In this document: positions 14,625-46,383 of the stretch, piece after piece | Numbering within the stretch: the stretch's first letter is position 1 | How the letters are laid out: each line of letters begins with the position of its first letter | DNA from: Escallonia rubra | Lineage: Eukaryota > Streptophyta > Magnoliopsida > Escalloniales > Escalloniaceae | Direction of reading: 5' to 3' | NCBI GenBank assembly: GCA_033065855.1 | Contig: JAVXUO010000974.1 | Span: forward strand, 1 to 64,000 | DNA: 64,000 nucleotides | Notes under the pieces: generated by a model | The model's database searches: none | The model's input: only the letters and a program-made list of their open reading frames with translations | What the model was told of the DNA's origin: nothing | Translations under genes and position numbers: made by a program

Positions 14625-14737
14625 GGGAAAAGTAGGGAATGACCCCCTCTACTATACATGTTGTGCGATTTGCCCCCCTCCACTTCAAACTTAAGCACTA
14701 AACCCCCCCACAGTTTGAGAAATTGGGCACAGTTAAC
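14625..14737 (+). repeat. MULE left terminal inverted repeat
   Basis: This 113-bp repeat matches the inverted 22449-22561 at 110 positions. It contains conspicuous C-runs (CCCCCTC, GCCCCCC, CCCCCCC). In Mutator elements such TIRs bind the transposase and often act as promoters; here the GRF gene starts about 215 bp inside. Confidence 0.95.
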
Positions 14738-14953
14738 GGAAATCATCCAATTTAGCTGCGTTTTTTGGAGGGAAAGAATTGGCGCCCAGAAGGTGTTTTT
14801 TTAAGACGAAAATGCCCTTCTACTCTCTTTATAACACCAAAATTCATCCTTTACCCTCATTTCTTCCCTTACTAAACCTTCCAGCAGCCTCCTTTCTTCC
14901 TCTACCAACATCCCAACTATATTTTGGTTCTCTACCCACATCTCCATGCCATA

Positions 14954-15369: not shown

Positions 15370-15957
15370 TTGAAAAATCTGTAAAACTTTGCACCAGTGC
15401 TATTTTCTGTTTTTAATTGTACTACAAATGTGTTATGTAACGCAAATCTAACCTCTGTAATGCAAATGTGTAATGCAAATTTATCCTATGTAATGCAAAT
15501 GTGTTATGTAATGCAAATCTATCCCCTGTAAGTGTGTGTGAACCTGTTTTAAGTGCTAACGCACATAAAAAACCTGTGAAAAACTAACCACTAATACCAT
15601 AAAAACCACCAACCAAATGCAATTTCCAACCACTAATACCATAAAAACCTGTGAAAGTAACTGTTTGAAACATCACATAAAAACGTGTGAAAGAACCTGT
15701 TTGAAACATCACCATAAAAACCACCAACCAAATGCAATTTCCAACAAGTACGGTACATCCACACCAAAGTCATCAGAAATCTATACAAACATCTAACAAG
15801 TAAACCATATCAAAATCTAAAGTAAAAAGTATCCAAAGTTTCCAACAACAGTTTCCAGTTCCAACAAGTTTCCAACAACAGTTTCCAGTTCCAACAGTTC
15901 CAACAAGTAACCCATAAAAATACCTAAAGTACAGTACATGCCATCTTCATCATCCAA
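15370..15957. repeat. MULE intergenic spacer with short direct repeats
   Basis: Between the two convergent stop codons are short direct repeats: TGTAATGCAAAT-type units at about 15416-15530, and repeated CCACCAACCAAATGCAATTT at about 15605-15750, then TTTCCAACAACAGTTTCCAG twice near 15840-15895. Both genes must terminate here. No open frame is present. Confidence 0.7.
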
Positions 15958-18900
15958 TTACTTGCCAACATGACCATTCTTCCCTCCAACAGCTGTTTGC
16001 GTTGCAATTGAATCCATCTGTCTCTTTTTATCAGCAGCCTCCATCCTTTGTTGCCTTCTCAAAGCAGCTTCAAGTAAAACTTGTCCTCTTGATGTCTCAA
16101 CAGATTGCAACCTGTTACATTAATAGTAAGTCAAAGTGAAATGTTAAAGCAATTTACGAAGTGAAGGTATATTGTAACCTGTTAAGAGTGGCATCAGGTG
16201 TTGAAGCAACATCAATATCAGCATTAGAAGTTCCCTGGGCCCAACAAGGTGGCAGATTTTTGGACACAGCTGCGGCAGAAGAAAATCTAGCCCCTGCTGC
16301 GGCATCAACTAGAGGTGGTGTAGTAGCAGCATGTCCAACTGTTGGTGGTTCACTAGCAGCATCATGAGGTGCCATATGGTTTGGAGTGCCAACCATTTTT
16401 GGTGCAAATCTTCCCATCAGTTGTCCTCTATTCTTCTTGATAACACCCTTTTCATTTCTCAGTGGACTATGCTTGTTACCTGCAGTTGCAGTTGCATTTG
16501 CACTAGCACTAGCACTAGCACTAGCAGGGAGACTTGCACTAGCACTAGCACTTGCACTAGCACTAGCACTTGCACTTGCACTTGCACTTGCACTAGCACT
16601 AGCACTAGCACTTGCACTTGCACTTGCACTTGCACTTGCACTAGCCCTTGCCCTTGCCCTTGCCCTTGCATGTGCAGTATCAGTGGCACTAGCATTGGCA
16701 TTGGCATTAGATACCTAGTTATAAACAGTGATGCTGTAAGTTCTTACCCTATGAGTGGATATATAATAAGTTAAAAATCATTATTGCTTTGATGCTTACA
16801 CTTTCAAAAGTTGACTGTGTTCCACTACCTATTCCTGCCTCACTTGTATTGCCACCAGAACTCTATATAGGCAAAACGAGGGTGTTAACATAGACAGGAT
16901 TTAAATAACAATTGTAATATCTCAAAAAACTAAAATGACAAAAAATATACCTGACCACCTTGCTTTCTTGACAATGTAGATTTGGGGTGAAGTGGTCCTT
17001 TGCAGCTTCTCATATTATGGCCAACCTCCAAGCACTTGGCACATGTCATGACCCTGCCCCTCCTTGAAATGTTATTCTCACTTCTTGGCTCATCACCACT
17101 CCTTCTTCTCAACTTCTTTGGTCTGCCAGATGGTTTCCTAAAATGTGGTGGGGCAAGTGGATCAAGACCAGTCTTCACCCAATACCTCTCACTAGGTACT
17201 GGGTGAATCATGCTAGCATAAGCCCGTAGGTAGGTTTCCTTGCTGTAAAAAGGGTGAATATATGACTCTGGTTTCTCCCTGTTTAGGTAGATTGAAGCCA
17301 CAGCATGCTTGCATGGTACTCCTGTTAATTGCCACATCCCACAGCTACAAGTCATTGCTCTCAAGTCCACCAACATTGTTCTATCATAGCACTCTACCTC
17401 AAACTCTAATCTTCCACTCCACCCAGCAAAACAACACTTTGATGCCAATTTGTTCCTCTCCAGTTTCTCCAAAATCTTAGGACAAATAGATCCATGGTAG
17501 TGCTCCATCCCCCTCTTCTTAACTTGGATCCTTGTCATCAAATGTTTCCTAATCCACTCCAACATGTTCACAATAGGGAGTTCTCTAGCTTCAAGTATGT
17601 AACTGTTAAAACTCTCTGTTAAGTTATTAACCAAAATATCACACTTAGAAGTTGTTCCAAAATGTGACCTTGTCCACAACTTTGGGTCTATGTCACTCAA
17701 CCACTTCAAAATACTGCCATCTTTATCCACATTCTTGATCTTTTCAATCCGATCATTGAAATCATCCTTGTTACTTGCTCTAGCAGCACGCCACAACAAG
17801 TCCTTTAACTCTTTACCTTTGAACTTCTCCCTAAAATTAGAATACATGTGCCTCATGCAATATCTATGTTCAACATTTGGCATTAAATCATTAAAAGTCT
17901 CAACAAGTCCTTTTTGTCTGTCAGAAATGAAAACCCACCCCTTTTCCTCAACCCCACCAATGTCATCAAGCAAAGTCTTCATAAACCACATCCATGACTG
18001 CTTTGTTTCTGCCTCAACAACAGCAACAGCAATTGGAAACATATTGTCATTGCCATCTCTTCCTACAGCACTCAACAACTGTCCCCCAAAAACACCTTTC
18101 AAAAAACAGCCATCTAGACCTATAATGGGCCTACAACCCTTCAAAAATCCTGACTTCAGTGCTTCAAAACAAACATACATCCTTTGAAATACAGGTGGAT
18201 GATCAATTGATAGCCTCTCTGTACAAATAACCACACTTGTCCCTGGGTTTTTGCTCTTAAGTGTCTCCCCATAATCCCACAACCTTGAATACTGCATCCT
18301 ATGGTCCCCCTCAATCATTTCCCTAGCTGTCCTTTTTGCTCTGTATAGCTGAAACCTACTAACTTCTGCATTAAAATCCTTCTTCACATTGGTTTTCATA
18401 GACGTAATCTTCCAATTAGGGTCTTCTCTTAACCTCTCCAAATATTGCTCAGAAATGAACCTAGAGGTAACCAAATGGTTATCAAAGTCTCTGCCACAAG
18501 TATGTTTGTTGTTGAAACTCTTAATTTGAAATGTTCGTGCCCTGTTCATCGGAGAAGCATGTAATCTCCACTTACAACCACCATCATCTTTGTGCCAATA
18601 CTTACAGCACACAGTTATCCTCTTGCTCTCATTTTTTTTATAAACGAAATCGTAACCTCTCTTCACACTCCACTCCTTCAGAGCCTTCCTAAAAATTTGT
18701 GGATTTGCAAACCTCATTCCCAAAACCAGATTTGGTCCTTCATGACCACCAAACCCTGTTTCTTCATTGAACTCTGAATATTTAGGCCCCCGTTCATTTT
18801 CAGTTTCCTCACTTCCTGAACTCCTAAGTTCATCCTCATTATCACCATCACTATACCACTGCCCTTCCCCTGCATTTACATTGACTGTAGGGACATGCTC

Positions 18901-19659
18901 TTCAACACCTTCATTAAAGATGTCATCATCTTGAGGCCCTCTTTCTATCCCTTCACTCAACTCAGGTAAATCAGGTTCAGCAGCCTCATGAGCCTCAGTT
19001 TCAGCTTCAGCAGCCTCATCTGAAGTTGCAGCAGCCTCATCTGAAGTTGCAGCAGCCTCATCTGAAGTTGCAGCAGCCTCAGCAGCCTCAGTAGCCTCAG
19101 CTGCAGCCTGTTCAAACTGTCCATCAGTTGTTTCACCCATGTCATCATCAACTAAATGAACATCCCTTAAACCATCTTCTACATCATCACCCACATGTAC
19201 AAAGTTTCCACTTCCACCTTCAGTGTCATCTGCCTGTGTAACATCCCCATCCCCAACTTCCATTTCCTCTTGGTCCCCATTATTATTTTCAATCAGCAAT
19301 CTGTCCCCAACTATGACATTCCCATCACTACCAATAACTTGTAAAGGATCTACCCTCTCCACATATAAAGGAACCATATCAGTGGACTTATAATATTCAA
19401 GCATTGACATCACACCATTATCATCAGTTATCAGCCTTAAACCTGACCTAAAATCAAGCCCAGGTACTTGGTAATACATCAAACTAGAACTAGGTAAGCC
19501 CAAGTCACCTATAATGCCCACCAGCTCCCAATAAGACATAAGGTCTACATCCATGCCATCTAAAACATCTACAACACCACCCTTCCACTCCATATTAGGA
19601 ACCCCAGTGAAGTAACCTCCATGGTGAAATTTTAAACTAATTGTCTCAAACACAACCAT
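15958..19659 (-). CDS. MuDR-type transposase, four exons, about 1153 residues
   Basis: Exons on the minus strand are 16951-19659, 16800-16862, 16179-16714 and 15958-16111; all joins are GT/AG and keep frame. Residues 1-100 form a PB1-like N-terminal domain; 110-300 are acidic and include TSDEAAA repeats; 315-390 are the MuDR DNA-binding domain (FRKALKEWSVKRGYDF, HTC); 500-640 the MULE transposase core. The catalytic triad is probably D516 (IIGLDGCF), D580 (VFISDRQKG) and E682 (NNLTESFNS), with CMRHMYSNF between. A SWIM finger has C771, C773, C783 and H785, and a CCHC knuckle C873, C876, H881, C886. The C-terminus has a Ser-Ala/Arg-Ala repeat tract and a basic helical end. No stop or frameshift is seen. 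It acts in the nucleus on the element's TIRs. The start is the first ATG before the PB1-like domain. Confidence 0.93.
16492..16708 (-). repeat. Coding hexanucleotide repeat in the transposase C-terminus
   Basis: On the plus strand the tract alternates GCACTA, GCACTT and GCCCTT units. Read in the transposase frame (third exon) these are Ser-Ala and Arg-Ala dipeptides, about 30 of them, flanked by NANANASATDT and GNKHSPLRNEK. All units are multiples of six bases, so copy-number slips keep the frame. Other frames stay open by the same arithmetic and are not genes. Confidence 0.9.
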
Positions 19660-22448
19660 TTCTGCAAGTTCAAATAATTAATATTAATAATTATTTAAGC
19701 ATAAAGTTGCTTTGTCACTATATTATAATAAATGTTAATTACAGTAAATTCCTAATTAACTTTTATGTTTATTTAACTCTTGTGTTAAAGCAGCTGTAAT
19801 TTACTAATAACTGCCTAATTACTGCTGTAATTAACCTTTACTAATTAATGCCTAATTTGTTACCATAGCTACTAATTACTGCCTACTTAAGCTGAAATGA
19901 CTATTTGGGAAGTTATTGACTAATTAGGGTCTGATTTTACTGCCTTGATCATCTTTATACAATTAATAACTAATTACTGCCTAGTTATTGCCTGATTTTC
20001 CTACTAATAATAATTAATATTACTGCCTAAGATGCTAATAAAAGTGCTAACAAGTAACTAGCCTGATTTGGGCTAACCAAGATGCTAATGCTAGAACAAA
20101 TATGCCTAATTTATGCAGACAATGCAAGAAAAAGCAAGTAAACTGAAATAATGAAAAGGCCTCCATGTAGAACAACTATGTAAAATATCCAGTTTAGTCT
20201 CACATTTCAAATGTCACACTACTACAGGGAGCATTGCCTGATTTTACTACTTAGAATAATTAATATTACTTCATTGATCATCTCCATACAGTTCAGGAAA
20301 CAACTCAAATGAGATAACAAGAAACTTACAAAGTGAGTAAGTTTACTGCCTAAGAGAGAATAACATACAAGCTGTGTGCTAGTTCCAACTGTGTATCTCC
20401 ACTACAGAAAATGTAGCACAAGAGGTAGCACTAATGTCATAGCCATACAGGATTCATCCAAAAGTAGGGAAAAGTAATCTGAAATAATGAAGTCTCATGT
20501 TAAAGATTGAAACAAAATAGTTGCAGTTTGAGTAACTTACTGCCTAAGATGCTAATGAAGTGCCAACAAGTAAGTAGCCTGATTTGGGCTAACCAAGATG
20601 CTAATGAAAATGAAGTGCTAGCCAAGATGCAGGTCTTGTGTATGTTATATATGTGGCCTAAATGAGCAAGCTAACTGAAATAATGAAAAGTCCCTTGTTT
20701 GTTACAGATTGGAAAAAAAGACTTGCAGTTTGACAACAACTCAAATGAGATAGTATGAAAATTACAGAGTGAGTAACTTACTGCCTAAGATGCTAGTGAA
20801 GTGCTAACAAGAAACTTACAAAGTGAGTAAGTTACTGCCTAAGAGAGAATAACATACCAGCTGTGTGCTAGTTCCAACTGTGTCATACCACTAACCAAGA
20901 TGCAGGTCATGTTTTAGAAATGCTAATGCTAATGCTAATGAAATGCTAATGCTAATGAAGTGCCAACAAGTAAGTAGCCTGATTTGGCCTGACTTAGTCT
21001 CACATTTCAAATGTCACACTACTACAGGAAGCATTAAGGGTATGTTTTAAGCCTCACATTTGCTCAAAATAAACCAACTTACAAGGCAAAGGCCTCCATG
21101 TAGCCACTGAAATTCATTTCAATTGTAATTTAATTGATAATTAGAAAAAGCAAGCTGTCTGAAATGATGAAGTGATTTAAATAAGAGTGAGAAGTTCAGT
21201 TTTACATATTCAAACATTAAAAAACCTCCCCTTCTCAATGGTCTAGGTCACTACATATTCCACTTCTCAATGGTCTAGGTCACTACATCTGTTACAGCTG
21301 TTACATCTGGCTTCCCTATCTGAAATTTTCAGGTATATGTAGGAATTTCAGACATTCTTCTAGTTCCTTACCCATTCTTCAACAACCAATTTGTTCATCT
21401 ATGTAAACTCATCAAACTGTGCATGCCCACTGTCTCAAATCTTGTTTTGGGCGATACCATTCACCCGCATGTTCAGAAGTTTAAGAAACCTTCAAAAATA
21501 TTATCAATTACAACCTAATTGATAATTAGTAAGTAATATTTTCTACTTAATTGAAGTTCTGCCCTAATTGTTCATCATTTGCCCTAAAGTTACTTCCTAA
21601 TTTTGCCCTAATTTTACCCTTTCCTAATTTTGCCCTATTTATTCCCTAGTGTTACTATCTATATTATAATAGCTACTTTACATGAGATCGTGCATGATGG
21701 GCCCATTAATCAAACCCAGAAAATTGATCAAACCCATTGGAATCAATCGGTAATCATTAAATAATAATCAAAACCGAAAGTCAACCATTAATCAAAGTTA
21801 AAACCCATTACAAAATTGAGATCGTGCGTAGTGGTCCCAAGATTTACATTACTTTACATGCTGAGGGACCACATGACCACTGTCTTCGTGCATCAAATAC
21901 CATAAAGGAAAAAAACCCTAACTTCGTGCAAACAGAGTGCATGCATGGCAAGAATGTGGCGTAAAATATAATCATCAACCCTAAAATCTATAGATCTAAC
22001 TAAAACCCCAATTTTTGAAAGCCAAAACTTTCAGAATCGGGTAAACCAAAGACGTTGGGGGTAGAGACATATAGATCGATGATGGGTATTTAGAAAGAAC
22101 ATACCTTATGTAGAATCGCACCACAGAAGCTGAAGATTGCAACGATTTCGTCCAATACGTAGATCGTGACGATTTCCAAGTTCGTTCGTGACGATTTCCA
22201 AGTCCTCCTCTCTTCGTTCGTGACGATTTCCAAGTCTTCCTCTCTTCGTTCAGCAGATCGGCACGCGTAAGGGGTAGGAGAACAGACGCCAGAGAGGGAG
22301 ATGAACAGACGCCTATGATTTTGAGTGAGAAGATGAAACGGGAGAAGGTAGAGAGAGATTGCACGGGTTCTGGGTAGGCTTCTTGAAAAAAATTAAGGGT
22401 TATATGGGAAGGATAAAAAAGACATTTCACACAGAACTGTTACGGTGA
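19660..22448 (-). promoter_or_regulatory. MULE 5' region upstream of transposase (AT-rich, repeat-bearing)
   Basis: No gene is seen. The region holds several diverged direct repeats: ACAAAGTGAGTAAGT...GCTGTGTGCTAGTTCC occurs near 20337 and 20818, TCTCACATTTCAAATGTCAC near 20199 and 20998, and CTGCCTAAGATGCTAATGAA several times between 20030 and 20960. Near the TIR, CGATTTCCAAGT units repeat three times (22141-22250). It presumably carries the transposase promoter and 5' leader; no core promoter can be fixed by eye. Confidence 0.5.
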
Positions 22449-22561
22449 GTTAACTGTGCCCAATTTCTCAAACTGTGGGGGGGTTTAGTGATTAAGTTTG
22501 AAGTGGAGGGGGGCAAATCGCACAACGTGTATAGTAGAGGGGGTCATTCCCTACTTTACCC
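22449..22561 (-). repeat. MULE right terminal inverted repeat
   Basis: Inverted partner of 14625-14737. It lies about 2.8 kb upstream of the transposase start and is the likely promoter side of that gene by analogy with MuDR, which is an inference. Confidence 0.95.
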
Positions 22562-23138: not shown

Positions 23139-24150
23139 AAGGGATCAAAAGATATTAGAACATTAAGAAAACCCCTCACAGAATATTAGCTGCCTTTGGG
23201 GATTTTTCTCTATGTTTTGGGGGCACGTGGGAGATGTTTATATAGAGGTCTCGGGATCTACGAAAAGATTGGGATGCAACTTAGCCGCCACCAAATAAAT
23301 ATTAAAAGATTTAAATATCCTTTTACCGACTGATAGGAGTTTTTTCCTTAAATAATATTATTTTAAAACTTAATTATCATAATACTCCATTTTGAAACTT
23401 ATTTACCCGCATACCACACTTTTGAAAATCGCGATTTTCAACCACGACTTTAGACTAGAAAATGCCCTTTTGAAACACGTTTTCACTTTTTTTTTCATTT
23501 TCTGCCTCATTTCTCAAAATCCAAGAAAACTTAACAAAATAAAAGAAACGGTAGAAAAAAAAGGCGCGGGTTTGGAACTCTGCATTCTGAACCCGATTTC
23601 CTCTTTCCCTCCTTCTTCCTTCCTCAGCACTTGCTCACGGCTGGGCTACACCAGTGGTGCACCAATGAGTTTTCTTCTTTATCCTTTCTTTCTTTTTTTC
23701 TTCCTTTTTACTTTTTTCTTCTGCGTCCTCCGTTAACATCATTGCTGGGTATTCCAATTTTAGGATTAGGGCAAAAGTTCAAGCTTATTGGATAATTTAC
23801 TGTTGGGATTAGGGCAAAATTTGAGAGGTCCAGTCAAGCAATATCTGTGGATCTACCCAATTTAGCAACGTGAGTCATCCTCTATGTTTTTCTTTGTGCC
23901 AATTTCACAGGTTGTTACTGTCATGGTTGTTGAAATTTGGAAATTGTATTCAACAAGTTCTTGAGCTCGGATGGTGTAGGAGAAGATGGTTTGATAAGCT
24001 CTCTTGAAACGGGATCAACCTTCATTTTGGTTCTAAGTACAAGACCATGTGTATAGGATTCCTTCAATGCTATGCCTTGTCCGTGTAAGATGACAGGCAA
24101 GCGTGCTTATATATATATATATATGGTTTTAACCCTGATTTCATTTTCAG

Positions 24151-24828
24151 GTTGCCAACCTCAACCTATATGCTGTTGCGTTGGTGGTCTTCAGTGTCTG
24201 CACAGTATAATCACCTACTGATGTTGAAAATCAGGTATTTAGTGAAATTATATGTTTCATATCCTGAAATTTCGGATTCGCCTAGTGGTGGTCTTATCTG
24301 ATACGCAAATGAACAGTACTGCTAGATAGCTTTCTCATCAATTGCTATTGGATGCTGCTTTGTCAGCATATTTCATCTTGGAACTAAAGAGCCAAGGTTT
24401 GCCACAAATTCTTACTCTTTACTTCTAGTTTATTGACGGGGTGCTAAGTTTTCTATTTTATCTTTTTGATGCACAAATTTTCTTCATGCCTTAATTTTAA
24501 GGCATGTTTCCTTTCTTTCCTTTCCTTTTGTTTACTTGTGTTTGCTTGAAGAGGAGGGGACATGAATGTGAGCATGTACTTTTGATTTTCATTAGCTGTT
24601 GGGACCATCATGAATAAATATTTTTGCCATATTTTGCTCACTTAGAAATAAGCATGCTTGGTCCATACAGTTGATCACGACGGCTCTTTTAGATTTTCTG
24701 GACTAGATTGAAGCAAGGCGTTCTTGGGAAAAGCTATGTGAGGATTTCTTGGACTTAATGGTTTAAGAAAGTTCTACCAAGTTGCTCTTGTTTATGTCTT
24801 CACCAGACTCGTAACCAATGTGTCACAG
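24151..24828 (+). pseudogene. MFS_2 (melibiose-type major facilitator) gene fragment
   Basis: Three exon-like pieces resemble plant MFS_2 transporters. 24151-24234 encodes VANLNLYAVALVVFSVCTV; 24326-24396 encodes IAFSSIAIGCCFVSIFHLGT followed by KEPR and a GT donor; about 24705-24828 encodes GKSYVRISWT, WFKKVL and then FYQVALVYVFTRLVTNVSQ ending at a GT donor. These are membrane helices and loops from the middle of the protein. In-frame stops (in the first piece, and between ISWT and WFKK) and a frame change before FYQVAL show it is dead. The rest of the gene is absent. It was probably captured by the surrounding TIR element. Confidence 0.7.
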
Positions 24829-27800
24829 GTCAGCTTGCTTTTAATATCTCCTAAATGGTTTTCTTCTACTTCCACTTCCACCATTAGCATAAAGACAGTG
24901 AGCAAGTGCCTAGCTATCTATACCTGAGGAGATATGCAGTTGCATAAACCCAGATACAGTACCAAATTATTCAATCAGTGCAATATACTAAGTCTTTAGG
25001 ATTAATCATTGCAAGGTAATACATTTATCTAATTCTTTTAACTCATGTGGACCTGAACAACATTGTGTGTGTTTGATCCTTACGGATCGGAGTTAAGACT
25101 TGGAGCAAGAAACTTTTCAATGACATGGCAACTGTTCAGCAGCTTTGTACCTAGAAAGGTAGAATCAGATTTCTGACAAGGACTCTAATCCTTAAAGAAA
25201 AAGAAAGAAATTCCCTCATAGAGGTATAACTATGTGTAGTTATACGCAAAATCTTGTTTCTGTTTACTAATAATTAGGCATGAGGATTGAATTTGTTACC
25301 TGCTTATAAAGTAGTTAACAATTTTTAAAATCTTCTTGAACATAAGATGGTTGGATCCATTTTTTCTTGAATCAGATTACTAATAACTGGTATGATGCTT
25401 TTCCAATTTGATTTTGCACAAGCAGATTGCTGATTTTTGGCCATATTCCACATTGAGATTTATTGAAAGTGGTTTGAACTGCTAGCGCTACTTCTGTTAA
25501 ATTTTTCTGACTTAAGATTTGGTGTAGTTACTTCGAAGTGGATGAGAAAAGGAATAATCAATTATGTATGCTAACAGACCCATTGTTAACCAATACCTCA
25601 CTTCACTATCTTAGCCTGTAGCTTCTTTTTAACCTGAGGTGAGTGCTGTAATTTAAAAACTATTCTTATGTCAAGTTGCCATGTCGGGATCTGAAGGGTT
25701 TTCTCCACATTTTTAGTGTTTCATGAGTCAAGGACATTAAGATTCTTTGCATTGTGTTGATCCAGAAATGTGAAGCTCTCTTCCTTGAGAGGGCAACCAA
25801 TATTCATGTGAGTCAGGGGACTTGATGCTGCATAATTTTAGTCTAGTGAAATCTATTTTTTATTTGTTTCCTGCTGGTATTTCTATCACGTTTCAAAATA
25901 GCTTCCTCCTCGTATGTCCTTTGGATGTTCTCTGTAACCAGAATACCCAGAACAGTAGACATGTTCGTAAATGTTTGTTTAGTATAAGTATATCTAAAGG
26001 CAAACGTAATTGCCAATGCAGTGATAGTTTTGGCCAAATCAATCAGTTTTGTCGCATATAAAGTACAATCATGCGAGATAGTGATTGCTTTGGAAAAAGC
26101 TGGGAATCCCTTTTGAAATATGGGTATCCATGTTGCACTGTAATTTTTGATTAGGAATGGGCCTTTAATCTTTACATACCTGATACCTCAGTTCATTGGG
26201 GCCACAATGGGCACGTCAGACATGAACATACAGACGGATAATGAGCAGGAAACTGTATGTCACGATTCTCTTTCGAAAACTTGCTTTTGCTTAGATGGGA
26301 AATGTGCCGCCTAGAAATGTCTCAAAGTGTGTACACCATGTTTAAGTGTAAGATATATTAGACAATTGGTATTACTCTTTACACATCACTTTTATTGGAT
26401 CCTTCCAGGTGCTTAAGCTTCCCCCTTCCCGCTCCCGGCTTGTGCAACTAAGGGATTGAAAGCTTAAACTTCTTTCCACTTTGCCGTTTCCTAGTTATAT
26501 AGACATCTTAGTTACAAAGTTCATCTCATGTAGACCTTAAATGCTTAGAACTTGGACTTTGCAACTCTAAATAGTACTACAATTCAGGGCAAGCCTTGCA
26601 CAAGGAAATGCCATATCCTTAAGATCCATCTTAGGGTAGTTCTACTAACTGACAATTTCCAACATATATCGAGGACGTAAATTGTATATTATGCATATCC
26701 AGGTCTAGAAAGTGATAATATAAATTATATTAAGCCATGATTTTGATTAATTTGAATATTGTTTTGGGCACAACACTGACAAAGAAAGAGTATTGTCGCT
26801 GTCTCAAGTCATTTTTGTAGTTGGATGGGGGTAGTAGAACTTATCAGTCGAAGAAAGCAGTAATTGTAGGCCTTATTCTATAGGCTGTATGTGGTTTGCC
26901 CAAAAGCCTAATAGGCCCAAGTTCTGAGATTGAATCCCAAAATGAACTGGAACCATTGGAGGATTTCCGGCTGATCTTTGTCTGAATTTACGACTCTTAT
27001 TTGATTCATAATGCTCCAGATCTGACTGCTGGTTTTCTGCAATATCAGATTTGGACTTGTTAAAGTCCTTCATTATTTTAGTTAGCCAAAATGATGCAGA
27101 AAAATCCCCTTAATACCAGCCCTAGTAGCGCTACTTCTTATCTTTGGCTAATTTATGACTAATGTTTTGAAAATGAATCAGATTTGGCTGCATGATTTTC
27201 TTCTGTATCTGATTTGTACATATTAAAATCCTTAATGATTTCAGCTGGCTGAAATCGATCCAGATAAATTCCCTTGGTTCCAGCCCTTAGTAGCTTTGTG
27301 TTTGCTCTAGTTTACCTATGTAACTCATGTACTAGCTTTGTTATAGGAGAATTAAGGATAATTAGAAATTTACAGCTTGTGCACAGTCTGACGCATCTTC
27401 TCTTGAGTCGGATCCTCAAGAATCCTTGGTGCAATGCCAAGATAATTAGACCGTCTTGAGTCAGATTTAAGGCAGATTGGCTGTGAAATCTGTAAATGTT
27501 GAGTTTTGTATACTAACCATGGACTTGAAAATCGCATGGACTTGAAAATTTACATTTTTTAAGTTTATTCTTTGTATTAAGGAGAAGTCACTCTTTGTGG
27601 GAGTAAGATGGTGGATTTCAATACCTTTAACTTCTTTCTTTGCAGAAACAAAACATGATAGTTGCTGGGAGCTACCTTAACTTGGAATTTGAGATGATAT
27701 TGACTTTAGCAATGTGCAGATCAAGTCATCAATAGTTTGACTCAGTTGCTGAGCCCTTTGTGCTCACCTTTTGAGAGCATTATAAGTTATTCACCATGCA

Positions 27801-28164
27801 GAAATTATCGGATTACTGCAGATACAGTTGATCTTTGCCACATAAAAAGTTACCGCATCAAAGATTTGGTAAGTTTGTGCTTTTTAATCTTGTTGTATAT
27901 GTAATTGTAATGTAAATTAGTTATGTATATATAATAGCTTTAGTCATTTTATGATATTAGGAGCAATAGAGAGATGGATTGATGCTATGGGCCATAATAT
28001 GTCCACTGTGTGTGTTGGTGTGCGTGTGTGTTTTGTGTTTATGGCTTGGCGTGTGTGCGCCCCAATCAAGCCTCATCCAAGTTGTGATTTACCATGCTTT
28101 GTAATGACACATAGTTTGTATAGAAAACTTAATCATATTTCTATGCAAATGCTGAAGGTTTGTC
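24829..28164. other. AT-rich stretch without recognisable genes
   Basis: No domain or long open frame is seen. Two diverged direct copies of about 190 bp (near 26930-27125 and 27140-27300) share CAGATTTGG, GATTTCAGCTGGCTGAAA-like and AATCCCCTTAATACCAGCCC-type stretches. Some of this may be intron sequence of the captured transporter. Confidence 0.4.
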
Positions 28165-28956
28165 ATGGCTCCTTCCGTAAGGCGGCTGTGTTACTGGGGA
28201 GGAAATGTAGTAGAAGATTCAGATGGTTATGCACATGATTGTGGACCAAAGAAGTTGATCAAGGTGGAGGGTAACTGGACATTTAATTGCTTGATGGATA
28301 AGTTGTATAGCTGCATAAGATTGGACAAAGAATATTTTAGGTTGAAGTTGAATTGTAGGTATCCGCGGATGGTTGGAAACAATGTTAAGACCTATTATAT
28401 CAAAGTACCGATTGAGGATGATGGAGATGTATAAGCCATGTTTGATCTCCAATCTCAATTCTTGCAGTTGAGTGGCATTGAGTTATTTATTGAAATGGAG
28501 GCTATTGTCACGGGATATGGTTCCTCTACTCGGAATCTTGTGTCAAATGGTGACAGGCTATAACGTGACTTGTCCACGCCCATAATGGATTCTACCTCGT
28601 TGGACATTGGTGATCATGCCACACAAAGTTAGATTTTATCGCTCGTAGACAACGATGTCGGAGCTAGTTATTGTGGCGGGATTTCCAATGTCACGCCTCA
28701 GGGTGTAGGTGTGACTGGTCATGTTTCCTCTTTGCTTTTACCGCTACATAACATGATTGACTTGGGGAATGAGGCATCAACCATCATTGAATCTGTTATT
28801 CTGGATAATGAACATGAGAGGACAGATTCGGAAGGCGAAGAAGATGCATTCATGGAGAGGCTAAATGAAGATGACGATGGGGAAGATTATGGTAACGGTA
28901 TAAGTACTGAGATGGAAGTTCAGACATCAAGTTCTTGGCATGTCCTAAACCACTAA
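28165..28956 (+). pseudogene. N-terminal part of a MuDR-type transposase gene
   Basis: The frame from ATG 28165 encodes RLCYWGGNVVEDSDGYAHDC, then FNCLMDKLYSCIRLDK and RYPRMVGNNVKTYYIKVPIE: the PB1-like N-terminal domain found in many plant Mutator transposases. After a stop at 28434, the sequence continues in another frame with FDLQSQFLQLSGIELFIEME, also typical, and an acidic linker (28711-28956, EHERTDSEGEEDAFMERLNE). The DNA-binding, catalytic and SWIM regions are missing. It may be the worn transposase of the 23.3-36.6 kb element. Confidence 0.6.
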
Positions 28957-29640
28957 AAAGACAAACTATACTTCTCATGCGATGAGCATGACTAATTTAT
29001 ATAACCAAGCATACACACATACACAATATATTATTGTGAGAACTAGATAAGACAAGTGAGTGACAAGACAAGTCTCTGGCCACTTACACTCTGTTTTATT
29101 GGTAGTCCAAGGCCTTTCCAGTGAAATGCTACATCAACCATGCGCTTTTGTCTAAAGTAAAAGACAAATCATTTTTCTCATTTGTACTTTAGCCATAAAG
29201 GCTCAAGGCTTTCAAAAAAAGGTTATTTGTCGGTGGGAAATTTGTGTTCAATCAGCTGATTTAATTAGGAGGCTTCTTGTTGAAACTTCACATAGTTGGA
29301 TGGTGTCTTAAATCGGCGAGAAGAAAATAGACACAAGTATGATCTATTGCCAGAATACAAGTCTCTACTAACCGATAACTTCTTTCATTGGTATTCTAAG
29401 GCTTTTTCAGCGAAGTATTACATAATTCTTGCGCTTTTGCATATAGTGAAAGACCGATTAGAAGTTTCATATGTACTTTAGCTACATAATTTTAAAACTT
29501 CACATAGAGTTATCCGGCGGTCAGAAGTTTGTTTTGCATCAACTAATTTAAAAGGATTTTTTTGCTGAAACATCACGTGCTTGGCATGTCCTAAACCACT
29601 AAAAAGACAAACTATACTTCTAAATTAGCCCGTCATATCA
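28930..29640. repeat. Diverged direct duplication of about 330-640 bp
   Basis: TTGGCATGTCCTAAACCACT with the following 20 bp occurs at about 28937 and 29585, and the block AAGGC(C/T)TTT(C/T)CAG(T/C)GAA ... TGTACTTTAGC occurs at about 29110-29190 and 29398-29480. No function is evident. Confidence 0.6.
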
Positions 29641-30099
29641 ATCTGACGAGCAACAACTACGGTTTGATTTTACTATAGCTATAGATTTTTCATGGTGAAT
29701 TGTCCTTCACTCTGGAATGACGGTTCAAGGATTGATGAAGCTCTTAATGAGCTATTATTTTTTCAACAACTAATATTTATGCAAAGGCTTTTCATTAACT
29801 ACTTTAAAGAAACTTGCTGCGACTTGTCACATCTCAAAAAATTTAACACGTAACATTTATTGAAGTGGTCCCTTATCAAGCATTATATAAGTATGTGTAG
29901 TGGATGAAGGGCAAAAGGCATAGAGTGCTATAATCCTTGTTGTGTAAGAACTTTGGAAATGTCATATACTCCACGAGACATTTTTGAAGCAATGGGTCGT
30001 TACTGGGCGGGCGAAGATGAATTTCACTATTCTTTGCGTCCAAGTTTGCGTTACTCATCACGATATGTTAATACATTACATGCATAATGGTCTTATCAG

Positions 30100-30390
30100 T
30101 TGAATGACTATGAGGTCCTCGTAGCTGATTCACGACGCATGAATATACCCGTACCTCGGAAAAAAGCAATCAACATGCCTCAGAATACACATATGGAGCT
30201 TCAAATGGCACTACATCGTATACGTGAAGAAAACAATAGAATGAGAGTTTGTCAAAGTAGGCATAACCTACTTAGTATAGCACGTGAAAGCTATGCAAAT
30301 GGCAACAACAACGAAACACGTTTATATTGGAACATGAGCTTTGAACCTGAATCTGTTTCTGATGCTCTAGTGTCTGATGAAGATGACTAA
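30100..30390 (+). CDS. Unrecognised open frame, possible C-terminal exon
   Basis: The frame encodes about 96 residues with DYEVLVADSRRMNIPVPRKK, a helical NTHMELQMALHRIREENNRM stretch and an acidic end (SDALVSDEDD). Upstream, 29940-30085 reads MSYTPRDIFEAMGRYWAGED in another frame. I do not recognise the family. Its position after the MuDR-type fragment suggests the distal exon of an element-borne gene, which is an inference. Confidence 0.3.
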   Translation: MNDYEVLVADSRRMNIPVPRKKAINMPQNTHMELQMALHRIREENNRMRVCQSRHNLLSIARESYANGNNNETRLYWNMSFEPESVSDALVSDEDD

Positions 30391-30839
30391 AAATGGTTAG
30401 TGTTGAGGCTGAGTTGGTTATCAGCGTGGTCATGTCAACAATGCTGCTTCTTTGTAATTTCCTTTTAAAATTTCTATGTTGTATTTCCTTATGTTTAGAT
30501 GAAGATGACTACAAATGATTAGTGGTCAACAATGCACGTCATTAATATGAACATGCCTGAGTACCAAGTGTTTCATGACACTAGATCATCTACATGGTCA
30601 CAACCAACAGTGAACCTATATTTTCTTCAGTGTTGAAATCCTAATTATCACTACCTTTACCAATAACTAGTTACAAGCTATTTCAGCTGTTGCAGTGCAA
30701 GACGATTAAAGCCATGTCCATTTTTACTTTCTCAAACCGTTTGGTTGTGGAAAGTTGACAAGCCTCTAAAGTTTTGCTAGCAATCATTATAATTGTGAAA
30801 AGAAAAAATGTTTATCTTGAAAACGTGTTTAAGAACCAC

Positions 30840-31375
30840 GATTTAAAATTTCAACTTAAATTGTCCTTCCTAACAATGACTTTTAATAAAACATATTTAA
30901 GAAAAATAACTTCCGTTGAAAACACCTTTCTCGAAAAGCGATTTATATTATTGGACCTTGGTTTTCATTTCAACAAACTTCAAGCGAAAACGCCTTTCAT
31001 AAACACGATTTCAGTTGAATTGTTGAAGCTTGGTTTTCACTTCAACAAAAATTGTGGTTGCAAACCACAACTTCCAAGAAAACGCGTTTCATAACAACGA
31101 TTTTATGTTGAAGCTTGGTTTTCACTTCAACAAAACTCGTGGTTGCAAACCACGGCTTCCATTGAAAATGCCTTTTGTAACAACGCTTTCTGTTGAAAAC
31201 GTGGTACGATTTCAGTTGAAGCTTGATTTTCACTTCAATAAACCTGGTTGCAAACAACGACTTCCATGGAAAACATATTTTGAAACAACGATTTCTGTTA
31301 AAAACGTGGTGCAATTTCAGTTGAAGCTTGGTTTTCCTTCAACAAAACTTGTGGTTGCAAGCCACGACTTCTATG
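30840..31375 (+). repeat. Hairpin-bearing tandem repeat array 1
   Basis: About four diverged units of 110-130 bp follow one another. Each has GAAGCTTGGTTTTCACTTCA, then a palindrome of the type TCGTGGTTGCAAACCACGA, then a TCCA(T/A)(G/T)GAAAA(T/C)GCCTTTTG segment and ACGATTTCTGTT. The palindromes would form 8-9 bp stems. Confidence 0.85.
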
Positions 31376-32668
31376 GGCAAGAGGGTGCTTGTGTGTCTCC
31401 TCAAAGATGGGCGCCTAGTGCGGAGAGCGTGTGTTTGTCTCCCATGGGAAGGTGTTCATTGTTCGAGAGTGTTTCTTTCTCTCCTTCTTAGAGTACCACT
31501 GGTTCTCCACAATGTTCTATTCTCTTTTCTCTTGATTTCATGTTTCTGTTGTTAGCCGTGTTGTTGATTTTGTTTATGGTTAGTGGGTCTCTTTTCAGAT
31601 TTCAAGAAATGTCATTTTCACCAAAATTATCTACTCCCATTCAGATTTCAAGAAGTGTCATTTTTGCCATTATGCTTTTTCTCGTTCTTTCTGTTTTTGG
31701 GTTTAAAGAATGTGAGTTCTTCGCATTGGGTGTAAGTCATGTGTTAGGTATATGCGACACAGATGTTGCATACACGAAGAAAGAATGTAGATGGTGCAGA
31801 TGGTGGGGTGATGAAATGCAGGCTACTAAGAGTTACCAATGACTTTTTCTATGGGTCTTCTCTTATGATGTTTATGCTAGAGGAGAGTAATATTTTGTTT
31901 CCTTTGTTGTAATTGATTTATAGATGTTTAGTATTCAATTCTGCAAGCGGTTAATTATTAGCAGATTTCATTTTGTGTGTATTGGTTGTAAAGCCAAATT
32001 GTAGGAGGGACAGATTGAGACATTGCAAATTTTCTGGTTCATTTACTTCCAACTTAGTTTTCAACGTGAATTTTCTTTGTTTTTTTTATTTCCCTCAGTT
32101 AAGTTAATTACTACTTATGTGTTATTTATTTATTTTGGAAACCAGATGATGCTAGCTACAAATCTCTAGTCCCACAGAATCATATTCACAACCCCTGTTC
32201 TACTCCAGAGAGAGCAACAGCTCGTGCGATTAGTCTGCACTTATTGGTCCTCAGCGAACTAGATTTCAGGAAATCCTTCTTAATACTAAGTTACATAGGG
32301 AGGTTAGTCTGTATCTTAGTCATGCTTTGTGTGCACTGGTAACAAGATGATTCTAGAAATTGAGCTGATTTTGTTCGCAGGAAGAAGCTGGAGGATGTTA
32401 TGTCGGTTGATGAAATTTTAAAGGGTCAAATACACGTAGGTACCCTGGAACTACCACAAAGTCTCAATTAAGGGTCCCAAAATTTAATTTTTACACATAA
32501 GGGCTTGTAACTCCAAATTTGCAATAAATAAGGACTTCCGTCCACTTTCTTAACGATTGAGGCTTTTCCGTCAGGGGCATTTTTGGGTTTCCATATTTGG
32601 GTGTTTTTTTTCTTCTTCTTCAAAATTTCATCTTTGCCTCCACCACTACCACTACCGCCACCCACCAC

Positions 32669-33172
32669 CGCCGCATCCTCCACCAGCCCTTCGTCCCACA
32701 AGACACCTCCCCACCGACCCAAACCCCATCTCCTTTACCTCCGCTTCCCAAGCTCCCATTCTCAACCTCCCCCTCCACCCCCACCAACGAGACCCCCTTC
32801 TTTCCTTCCTTCCCCTCCCCACCACCACCACCGGCCTCCCCTTCCTCCGCATCCTTCTCGGCCAACATTTTCTCCCTCTCCCTCCCCCAGTCCCCCAAAC
32901 CCAAACCCACCTCCTTCAAACTCATCGCAACTACCGTCGTGGCTGTACTCACCGCCATCAGCGTCGTCTCCATCATCATCTTCCTCCACATCCGCAAACG
33001 AAGAAAGGAACATACTTTCAGCGACCAGAAAACCCACGGATCCGACACCAGCAGTAGAATCTTCAGCAATGGAGCTGCTATTGCCAACGTAGCACCAAAG
33101 CCACCACGAAGGCCCTCTCAGGCCAGATCTGAATTCCTCTACCTTGGCACTCTCGTTAACTCCCACAGTGGC
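32669..33172 (+). pseudogene. Captured formin (class I FH) N-terminal fragment
   Basis: The open frame encodes HRRILHQPFVPQD, a long Pro-rich extracellular stretch (PPTQTPSPLPPLPKLPF, FPSFPSPPPPPASPS), one membrane helix (LIATTVVAVLTAISVVSIII) followed by HIRKRRK, and the class I formin motif SEFLYLGTLVNSHSG. Class I plant formins anchor actin nucleation at the plasma membrane; the FH1 and FH2 parts are missing here. No intron interrupts the piece. The frame continues to 33343 with no further formin match. Confidence 0.85.
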
Positions 33173-33299
33173 ATCGGCGGTAATAGCCAACCACACAATG
33201 GGGATAAAAGTGGGGATAATAGCCAACCCACAGATCCGGCACCGGCGAGAATTCCCATCCCACCATCACTCGTGCCGCCGATTTCTGCTCCTCCGCCTG

Positions 33300-33380
33300 C
33301 TGGATTGACGGCCGGTCAAAGGTATGGCCGGAGGAGAGAATAACTGGGTCCGTCATTATCTCTAGCGAGATTGGAATTTG
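33300..33380 (-). pseudogene. Captured U-box (plant E3 ligase) fragment
   Basis: The minus strand encodes IPISLEIMTDPVILSSGHTF followed by DRPSIQ, the start of a plant U-box (consensus CPISLEIM.DPVILSSGHTFDR.SIQ); the first Cys is replaced by Ile. Only about 27 residues are recognisable. It lies back-to-back with the formin piece inside the same Pack-MULE. Confidence 0.85.
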
Positions 33381-34555
33381 TTTTCTACCTGCGTAATAGT
33401 TTTCTTTCCCTCTGTTTCTGTGGATCTTTGGCCTGGATGAGGATGAGAGAGGTGAAATTTTGATGAAGAAGAAGAAGAAGAAGAGAAAAACACCCAAATA
33501 TGGAAACCCAAAAATGCCCCTGACGGAAAAGCCTCAATCGTTAAGAAAATGGACGGAAGTCCTTATTTATTGCAAATTTGGAGTTACAGGCCCTTATGTG
33601 TAAAAATTAAACTTTAGGACCCTTAATTGAGACTTTGTGGTAGTTTCAGGGTACCTACGTGTATTTGACCCAATTTTAAAACTAAAAAATCTAGATCTCC
33701 CTATGAAGCTTTTTGAGTCAGCACTATGGAGTGATTATGAGAATAAGCTCTGTGATGACAAAAAAGATAGGGCAAAGGTGAATACTACGCTTATTCTTGC
33801 TCTCTTCAAGTTGAGACCAACTGAACCCACAAGTGTTACCTTAGTCACAACCTCTAGGAACAAAAGTTAGTTCAGTTATGATTGAAACAAGACAATTTTT
33901 TAAAGCCTGATTGTCCTAAACTTCTAGTATGACTTAATAATAGAGATAATAACATTCTTTTTGTACTTAGTTGTCTTATATTACCTGTGTGTAGAAGGAT
34001 TGAAGTTTAGTTTGCGGACTATCTTAATCATGAGTAATGAAATTTACCTTTTCCTAATATAGCATAATATCATCATAGTGCCTTCATGTAATCTAGTGCA
34101 ACAACTGTTTTTTAAGTTATCTTTTTGTCTTGCAGTGTCTTGATTGGGATTCGGTGTAGACCCATTTTTATTATTGTCATGTATCTCTAGATGGAAGTTA
34201 CTCTGTCAAGGTTCGTGGCTTTATTCAACTTAGTGGAAAGCATAATCATGTTGTGCTTTCACATTTTCAGTGACATCTTTTTGTTTCTTTGCTTGTTGTG
34301 AGATGCTCAAATGTAATAGTTACTGAACATAACTCCATTTACTTGTACCATGTTGTTAGTATAGTGTTTTACAACAGTGCCATGATGGAAGAGCATCAGT
34401 GAAGAAATAATGTGTTATTTCTTGAAAATGAGATGACATAATGCTATTTATGGTGTGATAATTCTTGAGCTCATTGTAGAATATAACGAAGTATCAAAAT
34501 ACACATAGAAACATTGAAGTGTGCAGGTGGGAGGGGGAGATAGATGGAGGGGACT

Positions 34556-34590
34556 AGGGAGGGAGGGAGGGAGGGAGGGAGGGAGGGAGA
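34556..34590 (+). repeat. (GGGA)n microsatellite
   Basis: About eight GGGA units lie in the intron-like region of the RDR fragment. Confidence 0.95.
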
Positions 34591-35509
34591 GATTACAATA
34601 TTGCAAAGTTCTACTTTTGGGTCATAAAGGTATACGCATAAGCTTTACCTATTTGTGTCCGTATTTCCTTTTTCTCTATGGTAGTCATGGATATATAAAC
34701 GTTGGCATTTGAGGCATTATCAGTTAATTTGCATGGTGAAACAAGTGCCTGTAGCAAAACTTCAATATACTTCCATCTTTGCAAAATCTACAGCACAAGA
34801 CTAAATCCCAAATTTAAACACATGATAAGTGTGGTTCCTCTCAAGTTATAGACTGTAAGTATTAGATGCATAAGAGATACTTACCATTATGCCAAGATGC
34901 ATAGAACTGGAAGGCACATTAAAGTCAGGTCAATTATCTTTTTCGCTTACTTCCATGTTCGAGATTGCTAAGTATTATGGAGCTAAAAGTTCACAATCAA
35001 ACGTATAATATTGTGTTTTTGTAATGTTTTTCTTGAATCTACTCTCTTGTTTTATGGCTTCAATTGCTAATGGTAGTGTGAGGTTAAGAGGATATGCAAC
35101 CGCCTAATACCGTCTTCTCAATGCGTATAACTTCTCCATCTGATGATTTTGGACATAATGCCATGTTCTTATGCGACAAGATTTAAATTTCCACCTTTCA
35201 AAGCAACATAGGAAAGTTTGATGTGCTTTGGTATTCGTTTGTCAACATAATATCGTTTTTTTTTACTTACAATAAATAGCAAGTATAGTGGTCATTTTGT
35301 GTTCATTCAACAAGCTTATTGCCACATTGTCGTACCTATTTTGTTTTTGTCACTTCAGGGCCCATATCTTAACGCAACTAAAACTCACCTCCATAGAGCA
35401 TTAGGAGATGCAAATGTTTTGATTGTCAAGTTTGCAGAAGAGGCCACAGGCTGTACCAGTTCGACAACAAGTTCTTCTAACCATAATGCAACGTTCATCA
35501 AAATTGCAG

Positions 35510-36310
35510 TTGCAAACTACAATCGTTTCGCAACAACGATTTCTGTTGAACCTTGGTTTTCACTTCAACAAAACTCGTGGTTGCAAACCACGACTTCCGT
35601 TGAAAACACCATTTGTAAGATTGCTTTCTGTTGAAAATGTGGTACGATTTCAGTTGAAACTTAGTTTCCACCTCAACACAAATTGTGGTTGCAAACCACG
35701 ACTTCCACGGAAAAAGCCTTTTGTAACGACGATTTTTGTTAAAAACGTGGTGCAATTTCAATTGAAGCTTGGTTTTCACTTCAACAAAAATCGTGGTTGC
35801 AAACCACGACTTCTATGGAAAATGCCTTTTGTAACGACGATTTCTGTTAAAAACGTGGAGTGATTTCAATTGAAACTTGGTTTTCACTTCAACAAAAATC
35901 GTGGTTGCAAACCACGGCTTCCATAGCAAATGCCTTTTGTAACGACGATTGCTGTTAAAAACGTGGTGCGATTTCAATTGAAGCTTGGTTTTCACTTCAA
36001 CAAAACTGGTGGTTGCAAACCACGGCTTCCACTGAAAACGCCTTTTGTAACCATGTTTTCTGTTAAAAATATTGTGCAATTTCAGTTGAAGCTTGGTTTT
36101 CACTTCAACAAAAATCGTGGTTGCAAACAACGCCTTGAACAAAAATCGTGGTTGAGAACCACGATTTCCGTTGAAAACGTGTTTCTCGAATGCAATTTAT
36201 ATTATTGAACCTTGGTTTCATTTCATCAATAGTCGTGGTTAGCAACCACGACTTTAAGGGAAAACGCATTTAGGAACAACGATTTCTATTAAAACGTGAT
36301 TTATATTATT
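35510..36310 (+). repeat. Hairpin-bearing tandem repeat array 2
   Basis: About six to seven units of roughly 120-128 bp repeat the pattern of array 1: AAAAACGTGGTGCGATTTCA, GAAGCTTGGTTTTCACTTCA, a TCGTGGTTGCAAACCACGA-type palindrome, and a GAAAA(T/C)GCCTTTTGTAAC segment. The array adjoins the broken RDR exon on the left and the right TIR of the large element. Frames remain open over several hundred bases only because the units repeat. Confidence 0.92.
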
Positions 36311-36619
36311 CAACTTTTGTCTGTCCCAAAATGTTGTTATTTATTCTGAAGACGCTGTTTGAAAATGCGATTTTATATTTTCCAACAGAATATATATATT
36401 GTTTTCCAATTTTCTCTTTCAATTTTGTTTAAATTAGACAAATAAAATGAGAAACATATATATAGGCTGAAAACGTTGTTCCAAACCACCTTTTTCTCTT
36501 TGAAGTCGCGGTTATGAACCGCGATTTCAAAAAATATGGTATGCGGGTAAATAAGTTTGAAAATTGAGTAAATAGGTGATTAAAGTTTTAAAATAATATT
36601 ATTTAGGAAAAAAACTCGA

Positions 36620-39881: not shown

Positions 39882-41089
39882 TGGTTAATTTTACGCTACA
39901 CCCTATACTTAGGGGTCAGTTGCACCCAGAACCCCGTAGTTCTAATTTTGACACTCAACACCAAAATCTTTAAAATCTTGGTATTCAGCACCAAATGACG
40001 GTCAAACTGGCCTTTAACCATACGTCTGTTACTTTTTAAGGGGCAAAATGGTCTTTTTACTTGTTATATCCACCTTTCGTCCACGTCAGCTCCAAATGGC
40101 CCCAATAATTAACATCAGACCCTCCACGTCATTTCCTCACCCTTTTTCTCTCCCAAACTATTCATCTTCCCAACCAATATCGAAACGCGCGGCCACCTCC
40201 TCCGACCGAAACCACTGCCTGACGAGCCACGCCTCTGACTGAAGCCACTGCCTGGTGTGCCACCATCCCCGCCACCATTCTCCCCATCATCACGACCCAC
40301 CACATTCGGCCACCCACGACCAGCCATAACTACCCACAACCACCAATCCCGAAACCCACGGCACCCCATCCGATTGAATCGTGGCCACCAACGCCTATCG
40401 TTGATGACTGTCGCCTCTGCCACAAATCCTTCACCCACGACCACCCACAACCACCAATCGCTCCCTCACCCACGGTCACCACCTCAAATCGAATGACGAC
40501 CACCAATAACCGGCGTTCGACCAACAGTGACCATTCAATGAGCCATTATCACCTCTAATCGAACGACCATCAGACACTCCCCCTGCCTACCGTCGTAATC
40601 ACAACATACCCAATCACCCCATCACCCGATCTCCCCATCGATCTCCGGCGAGCCCAATCAGCCACTACACAACATCATCACCACATAATCAGTGGTCCAA
40701 ATCGAGGGTGAGAGTGACATGTCAGGCTAGGTGAAGAGGGCGTGGGGCAACGCTGGACGCCAAAGACCGCGGCGATGCTAGAGGCGGGTTCTTGGTGCAC
40801 GGTGGTTGGGGGCACTGAGAGAAATAGAGAAGAGAGAGAGAGGAAAGAGAGAGAAAATAGGGAAGAGAGAAATGACGTTGGGCTTAGGGGTTGGAGCTAA
40901 CTAGGATTTTATGGATAAAAAGACCATTTTGCCCTTAAACAATTAACAAACGTCTGGTCAAATGCCATTTTGACCGTCAATTGGTTTTAGATACCAAGTT
41001 TTTAAAATTTTTGGTGCTGGGTGCTAATTTTAGAACTACGGGGTTCTGAGTGCAACTGACCCCTAAGTATAGGGTGTAGCAATTAACCC
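39882..41089. mobile_element. Non-autonomous Mutator-like element, 1208 bp
   Basis: Long TIRs of about 175 bp (39882-40060 and about 40912-41089) match at roughly 83% and share CTACACCCTATACTTAGGGG and GAACCCCGTAGTTCTAA. The 9-bp duplicate CAATTAGAA flanks both ends exactly (39873-39881 and 41090-41098). The interior (40140-40720) is rich in CCA/CAC/CCG and may be a captured GC-rich fragment, but no domain is recognised. Lower TIR identity makes it older than the Pack-MULE at 32423. Confidence 0.93.
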
Positions 41090-44469: not shown

Positions 44470-46383
44470 GGGAGCTGATCCGTTGACAGCGCTGGCAAAT
44501 GGAGTTAAGTTGCCAACGCGATCTGGTCGTCCACGCGCGATCTGTGGACGGTCCAGATCTTTTTTTTGCACTTTTTTTAAGTTCGTCCGCTACATAATGT
44601 AGCGGACGATATTTTTTACGAATATACCCTTCATTCTCCAAGTCAAGATATTATATTTTCTAAAATATTGTCCGCTACATTATGTAGCGGACGATATTTC
44701 AGAAAAGAGAAAGCCAACCCCCACATCCATTCTCATTTTCTCTCTCTTTAGAAAAAAAAACCCATTCTCTTGACAGGAACAGCACGGCCTAAAGAGATGG
44801 CGATACGACATCGGCGATGGTGGCCATGGCGCTGCGGCCAATCACGGTGGGGCGGATCTGGAGTAGATCTGGAGCGCCGGCGGCCGGCGGTTGATGGAGT
44901 CTGCGCGACGGTACGACGTGAGGCGACGGCGCCGCATATCTGGAGGTTGTGACCACTAGCATCACCGTCGCGAGGAGCTCCGTGCCGATCTGCGCCAACC
45001 ATCCAAGCTCCAGATCGCGGTGGCACAGATCGGGAGCTGGACGGTGTTTGGGCGGCGCTTAAGCATCACCTACTCGTCGTCGTTACCCATTGCCGATGGT
45101 GGAGGAAGATATGCGGCCGCGACTGTTGAAGGCCCACGGTGGTGGGTGCCTGACTTATGCGCGGCGCCGGCGCCTTGCTGGAGGACACGCCACGGTGGTG
45201 ACTGCGCTAGGATTCTGACTCACAACGTTCTTTGATTGGTACGGAGGAGACTGGAGGAATTAGAGGCGCGACGGTGGCCGATGTAGCGGATCATGGAGTA
45301 AAGGGCGGCCGGCCACCAATTCTGTGCTCCTGGTCGGGATATTGGCGGCGTCGCTGTCGGGGGCCATGACAACGAGCTCTCGTATGGTTGGCCTTTCGCG
45401 ATGGAGTTGAGTCTCGTGTACTCAGAGATGGGCTGACTGATTGTGGTGGACGGCGCGGTGTCAGGTGAAGCTGCGATGATGCGGCCCCGCCGCCTTGCCG
45501 AAGTGTTTGACACAACGGCGGCAATCAGATGCTTCTCCGGCAACTTCACGGTGATTGCGGGGGTTGTTTGGTGCCTGGGCCTGTGGCAGAGCTGCGTTGG
45601 CAGCGGGCAGTGGTTGCGCCGGTTGGCGCCGGTGTTTGTCGGTACAGCGGCGCCGTGGCTTTCCCGGAGGGCCTACCATGGTGGTAATGGCACGGTGTCA
45701 TGAGTGCGGTGAGTTCTCGACGACGGCAAAGTGTTTACTGTGACTGCGGTAGCAACGGTGGCTGCACTGGAGGTTGCTATCGCGGCGGTCTTCGGCAGGC
45801 TTCGAACAGCCCGTATTTTTTTCTCTTTGTTTTGCGTTGTTGATGACGACACCGTCGGTGGCTTGGCTACCGGCGACAGCTTTGTTCTAACCCAAAGTCA
45901 TCTTTTGTTCTTTTTTTGATTGAGACGACAATTGAATCAGTGGCGGCGATTCTGTAGCAGTTTTGATGAATAGTTGCTAACAATTCTGGGTTTATGACCT
46001 GGAGAGAGAGAGAGAGAAAGAGAGGGGAAAAGAAGTCAGAGGATTAAAATGAGAGAGAGAGAGAGAGAATGTAAGAAAACCCATCCGCTACATAATGTAG
46101 CGGATGAGAGAAAGGACAGACCAAAAAGTCAGAGCATTAATGAGAGAAAGGGAAGAGAGAGAAAAAAAATGTCAGAAAACTATCCGCTACATAATGTAGC
46201 GGATGGGCTGTTTTTAAGTTTGAGGGTATTTTTGTCAAAAAAATCATCCGCTACATTATGTAGTGGACGAACTTAAAAAAAGTGTAAAAAAAAGATCTGG
46301 ATCGTCCACAGATCGCGCGTGGACGGCCAGATCGCGTTGGCAACTTAACTCCATTTGCCAGCGCTGTCAACGGATCAGCTCCC
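44470..46383. mobile_element. Non-autonomous Mutator-like element with repeated palindrome, 1914 bp
   Basis: TIRs of about 140 bp (44470-44612 and 46240-46383) start GGGAGCTGATCCGTTGACAG and match at about 96-97%. Flanks TATATGCAT and TATATGTAT agree at 8 of 9 bases, as a 9-bp Mutator duplication would. The palindrome CGCTACATAATGTAGCG or its AT-swapped form occurs five times near the ends. The core (44780-45910) is markedly GC-rich (CGGCG, GGTGG motifs), unlike the AT-rich host, and reads like captured coding DNA, but I recognise no product. A (GA)n tract lies at 46003-46170. Confidence 0.92.

Follow-up and report, generated by a model that had tools for sequence, protein, structure and literature searches.

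A probable non-autonomous Pack-MULE with formin-like and U-box gene pieces in an apparent exon of a gene piece of Escallonia rubra

Results

Architecture and termini of the element

Within the window (the whole stretch of DNA that was analysed: 64,000 nucleotides of Escallonia rubra, assembly GCA_033065855.1, contig JAVXUO010000974.1, positions 1 to 64,000 of the forward strand), positions 32423-33671 are occupied by a 1249 bp element that carries long terminal inverted repeats (TIRs), is enclosed by a 9-bp target site duplication and divides an apparent exon. The features of the locus, with exon boundaries placed by eye, are the following:

32146..32302, + strand: apparent exon upstream of the insertion, with AG before and GT after
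32381..33777, + strand: apparent exon split by the element, ending at a GT donor
32414..32422, no strand: left copy of the 9-bp target site duplication, AATTTTAAA
32423..32608, + strand: left TIR, 186 nt, 97.3% identical to the right arm
32561..33343, + strand: stop-to-stop frame of 260 codons with the formin-like piece and no methionine codon
33285..33374, - strand: half U-box domain, with IPISLEIMTDPVILSSGHTFDRPSIQ, PF04564 profile positions 8-37 of 73
33486..33671, - strand: right TIR, delimited by BLAST
33672..33680, no strand: right copy of the target site duplication, AATTTTAAA
34136..34213, + strand: approximate next exon, with an in-frame TAG at 34157-34159

The two arms (32423-32608 and 33486-33671) align by BLAST over 186 nt at 97.3% identity, in agreement with the original prediction of 187-bp TIRs at about 97%, and when one 11-nt gap is allowed their likeness continues for a further ~25-30 nt inward, via a CTT-rich stretch, and then fades. 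The TIR sequence starts with GGGTCAAATAC. The exact 9-bp duplicate that had been predicted is likewise present, since AATTTTAAA stands without mismatch on both sides, directly outside the element termini (under the local base composition, two matching 9-mers would arise by chance at such a fixed position with a probability of ~9e-6). Furthermore, the interior (32634-33449) has a GC content of 0.559, while the 1 kb of sequence on either side has 0.365 and 0.352.

These termini can be set against the definition of a Mutator-like element (MULE), for which TIRs of at least 100 bp at 80% identity or more (here 186 nt at 97.3%) and a 9-11 bp duplication directly at the TIR ends (here AATTTTAAA, exact) are expected; excerpts of PMC3310237 give TIRs >100 bp together with a 9-11-bp duplicate at the termini as working criteria for MULEs. 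A Pack-MULE additionally holds an identifiable host gene fragment, represented here by the U-box half (recognised by Pfam and PDB) and, through comparison with an Arabidopsis FH1 sequence only, by the formin-like piece, and it lacks a transposase of its own: a Pfam scan of two frames found no transposase family inside the element.

Other elements and repeats in the window

No further copies of the element were found within the window (the best non-self match of the TIR, E 0.39, is at chance level), in which three other elements of MULE type were delimited:

14625-22561: transposase-bearing MULE, ~10 kb from the element, with 113-nt TIRs (14625-14737 and 22449-22561) at 97%
39882-41089: small MULE-type TIR element of 1208 bp, with the exact duplicate CAATTAGAA, TIRs at ~85% and a GC-rich interior
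44470-46383: third MULE-type TIR element, with 161-nt arms at 94%, a duplicate matching at 8/9 positions in a TA repeat and a GC-rich interior

The first of these contains a 909-residue transposase frame (16930-19659, - strand) with the Pfam families MULE (PF10551), DBD_Tnp_Mut (PF03108) and SWIM; its own target duplicate would be T9 within a poly-T tract, and is thus weak. No Pfam match was obtained inside 39882-41089 (three frames tested) or inside 44470-46383 (five frames tested), and the latter element holds all five + strand matches that the near-palindrome CCGCTACATWATGTAGYGGA has in the window. The ends of the 32423-33671 element match those of none of the three, and the transposase-bearing MULE was rejected as an evident helper, as the two have no end sequence in common.

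The missing transposase (two frames scanned) and the unlikeness of the ends to those of the only transposase-bearing MULE in the window are what one would also expect of a TIR transposon from another group or of a chance inverted repeat; we regard such an origin outside the Mutator-like elements as highly improbable, given that TIRs >100 bp and an exact 9-bp duplicate at the very ends fit the working MULE criteria (PMC3310237, excerpts).

Elsewhere in the window a ~3.3 kb stretch occurs in tandem (5148-11812, pieces 85-93% identical), Copia-type retrotransposon gag and pol pieces are recognised by Pfam on the - strand (488-2091), and a gene-like frame of the DUF4408/DUF761 kind lies on the - strand at 62689-63690. 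The first 22 bases of the element had 0 matches in viral contigs and 0 in prokaryote contigs, as expected for plant DNA.

The formin-like piece

The resemblance to a formin is clear from ~32669 (RRILHQPF) to ~33170 (SEFLYLGTLVN) of the frame 32561-33343, which comprises a proline-rich stretch, a strong hydrophobic helix (~codons 121-144, mean hydropathy 2.74) and the SEFLYLGTLVN motif. At the inner end of the left TIR the same frame reads the hydrophobic codons LGVFFLLL, the TIR-encoded hydrophobic stretch having a mean hydropathy of 1.82. As reference we used an N-terminal sequence of Arabidopsis FH1 that was not taken from a database record, against which the frame reached an alignment score of 366 (maximum of 92 among 500 shuffles of the query), and its portion from the membrane helix onward a score of 130 (shuffle maximum 54, n=500). 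The five remaining frames of the element gave 35-66 in four cases and, for one + frame, 105; this last value exceeds the best shuffle (92) and indicates that proline-rich composition alone lifts FH1 scores somewhat. Pfam gave no support for the formin name (four weak rows below the cut-offs, best E 0.095), and searches of the literature for the letters of formin motifs returned no match (one motif alone; another motif together with formin). On the alignment to this FH1 sequence, we infer that the + strand piece is a fragment of a class I formin. An open frame of 260 codons was attained in 1/300 dinucleotide shuffles of the element, a length in keeping with captured coding DNA, though not in itself a sign of present coding.

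The U-box piece

On the opposite strand, the U-box half was recognised by Pfam (PF04564, E 5.1e-8) over profile positions 8-37 of 73, and the same interval (33285-33374) matched the PDB chains 1t1h (‘armadillo repeat containing protein’, E 5.7e-5) and 7xed (‘U-box domain-containing protein 12’, E 9.7e-5), both of which we take to be plant proteins. A functional E3 ligase would need a complete U-box (~70 residues), of which only these profile positions are found; the first - strand ATG of the element (33356) falls within the U-box half. With a formin-like piece on the + strand and half a U-box on the - strand, the earlier reading of pieces of two unrelated genes lying in opposed orientation inside a MULE-type element is upheld. 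The DNA that separates the two pieces (~33170-33285) has no assigned origin.

Coding potential

The original prediction further held that the formin piece keeps a long open frame with its membrane helix, and that a transcript from the TIR could encode a secreted or membrane peptide. The frame (260 codons) and the helix are indeed there, while an in-frame ATG is not: none of the 260 codons specifies methionine, and the first + strand ATG of the element, at 33069, is in a frame other than that of the formin. Two ways of starting translation were tried and rejected, namely a start codon for the formin frame within the element (no ATG in frame) and read-through from the upstream exon, whose continuation into the element is closed by a stop at 32469. 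The lack of methionine in the formin frame, together with this stop, means that a simple TIR-driven transcript would not give a membrane peptide, and the second part of the claim is not supported.

A working membrane peptide would accordingly have to be made in another manner, in which the inner end of the TIR serves as a hydrophobic leader (LGVFFLLLQNFIFAS) replacing the lost signal peptide of the formin, and translation begins at TTG 32597 or follows splicing to an outside ATG. The rarity of so long a frame (1/300 shuffles) and the hydropathies of the helix (2.74) and of the TIR-encoded stretch (1.82) are in its favour, as are reports, in excerpts of PMC4858842, that ~20-40% of putative MULE-derived genes show some expression in most Oryza species and that transcription, translation and constraint have been recorded for Pack-MULE interiors. 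We nevertheless consider it very unlikely, as the frame is without ATG, the + strand is without ATG before 33069, the in-frame near-cognate codons among the first 40 codons are only AGG, ATT, TTG, ATC and ATC, and read-through from the upstream exon terminates at 32469. On its own, neither captured piece seems capable of yielding a protein, and the element most likely encodes none.

Possible RNA-level effects

The opposed orientation of the two gene pieces between long TIRs has the consequence that RNA started at either TIR would be sense to one parent and antisense to the other, and could feed small RNAs. For a + strand transcript, judging from the sequence, an antisense relation to ~90 nt of recognisable U-box is possible. 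Under a stronger form of this idea the element would be a source of trans-acting small RNAs that damp the formin or the U-box parent; it draws on the presence of 24-nt small RNAs on MULE interiors and TIRs in rice (PMC4858842, excerpts) and on the suggestion, in PMC3310237, that Pack-MULEs might regulate their parental genes. Against it stands the short extent of the recognisable U-box piece (~90 nt only), and we deem it very unlikely. An extension in which the pyrimidine-rich inner end of the TIR acts as a new leader, so that a spliced or non-AUG TIR-formin membrane peptide would arise from the same RNA that is antisense to the U-box ligase gene, appears to us extremely unlikely; if true, one transposon would affect two genes in two ways.

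The insertion site

When the element and one copy of the duplicate are removed, the site reads KKLEDVMSVDEILK-LKNLDLPMKLFESALWSDYENKLCDDKKDRAK to the GT donor. The joined flanks (32381-32422 and 33681-33777) form, by eye, one open frame between AG and GT, which is in phase with the upstream exon at 32146-32302 and yields with it 98 codons with no stop; from this reading of the sequence, the joined site would be an exon. An insertion into an apparent exon, a point absent from the original prediction, also bears on the question of an empty site, to which it lends indirect support. The in-frame TAG at 34157-34159, in the next apparent exon, indicates that the disrupted gene piece is probably a relic. 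Pfam supplied no family name for it (two stretches tested), and its matches in the PDB were weak and unrelated (best E 0.41); we presume, as a lead only, a resemblance to the gamma class of plant RNA-dependent RNA polymerases (RDR3/4/5).

Tandem repeats of 108 bp occur on both sides of the gene piece, at 31023-31379 and at 35430-36269. They lie inside a diverged inverted pair (72%), whose arms at 23340-23485 and at 36468-36613 are ~13 kb apart and which also encloses the gene relic and a remnant near 28160 that we take to be MULE-like and for which Pfam gave no support. The gene piece itself may thus have been cargo of an older, larger element (23340-36613), at the ends of which no clear target duplicate was discerned by eye.

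Discussion

The element is best read as a non-autonomous Pack-MULE with at least two captured gene pieces, inserted in an exon of a gene piece and most likely encoding no protein (a reading to which we assign a probability of about 0.88). In the history that we propose, a Mutator-like element would have captured part of a class I formin gene, from the ectodomain to the juxtamembrane region but lacking the start codon, and, in the reverse orientation, a small portion of a U-box gene. The resulting Pack-MULE would then have entered the exon of the gene piece via a 9-bp staggered cut, and its mobility, if any, would presumably depend on a transposase supplied from elsewhere.

In its long TIRs, 9-bp duplicate, GC-rich captured pieces, size of ~1.2 kb and the absence of any transposase found, the element shares what is common to Pack-MULEs (rice, maize, tomato and others), and we saw no structural difference from them. 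Pack-CACTAs, by contrast, are marked by CACTA ends and 3-bp duplicates; neither was seen here, where the ends are long, begin with GGGTCAAATAC and are accompanied by a 9-bp duplicate. With Pack-TYPE elements in general (Pack-CACTA and others) it shares the arrangement of coding DNA from at least one locus between TIRs (PMC8903248, excerpts). Its 1249 bp place it near the peak of 1000-1200 bp in the size distribution of tomato Pack-MULEs (PMC3310237, excerpts), and GC-rich captures by MULEs are described for Oryza (PMC4858842) and for rice and maize (PMC3310237) in the excerpts of both sources. Pieces from several loci are also published, in rice Pack-MULEs, Arabidopsis Pack-CACTAs and maize Pack-TYPE elements; for the rice set of the same source, a significant number of multi-locus elements is given only for Pack-Mariners (PMC8903248), so that Pack-MULEs with material from two loci may be rarer than the term implies. 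The element is a two-locus Pack-MULE, a kind already published, and a well formed yet ordinary example of it.

Should transcripts or small RNAs of the element exist, it would offer a natural test of whether a two-gene capture touches both parents. As it stands, the element illustrates a known process: it shows cleanly how fragments of unrelated genes are brought together by Mutator-like elements and carried to other loci, here to an apparent exon in what is probably a gene relic.
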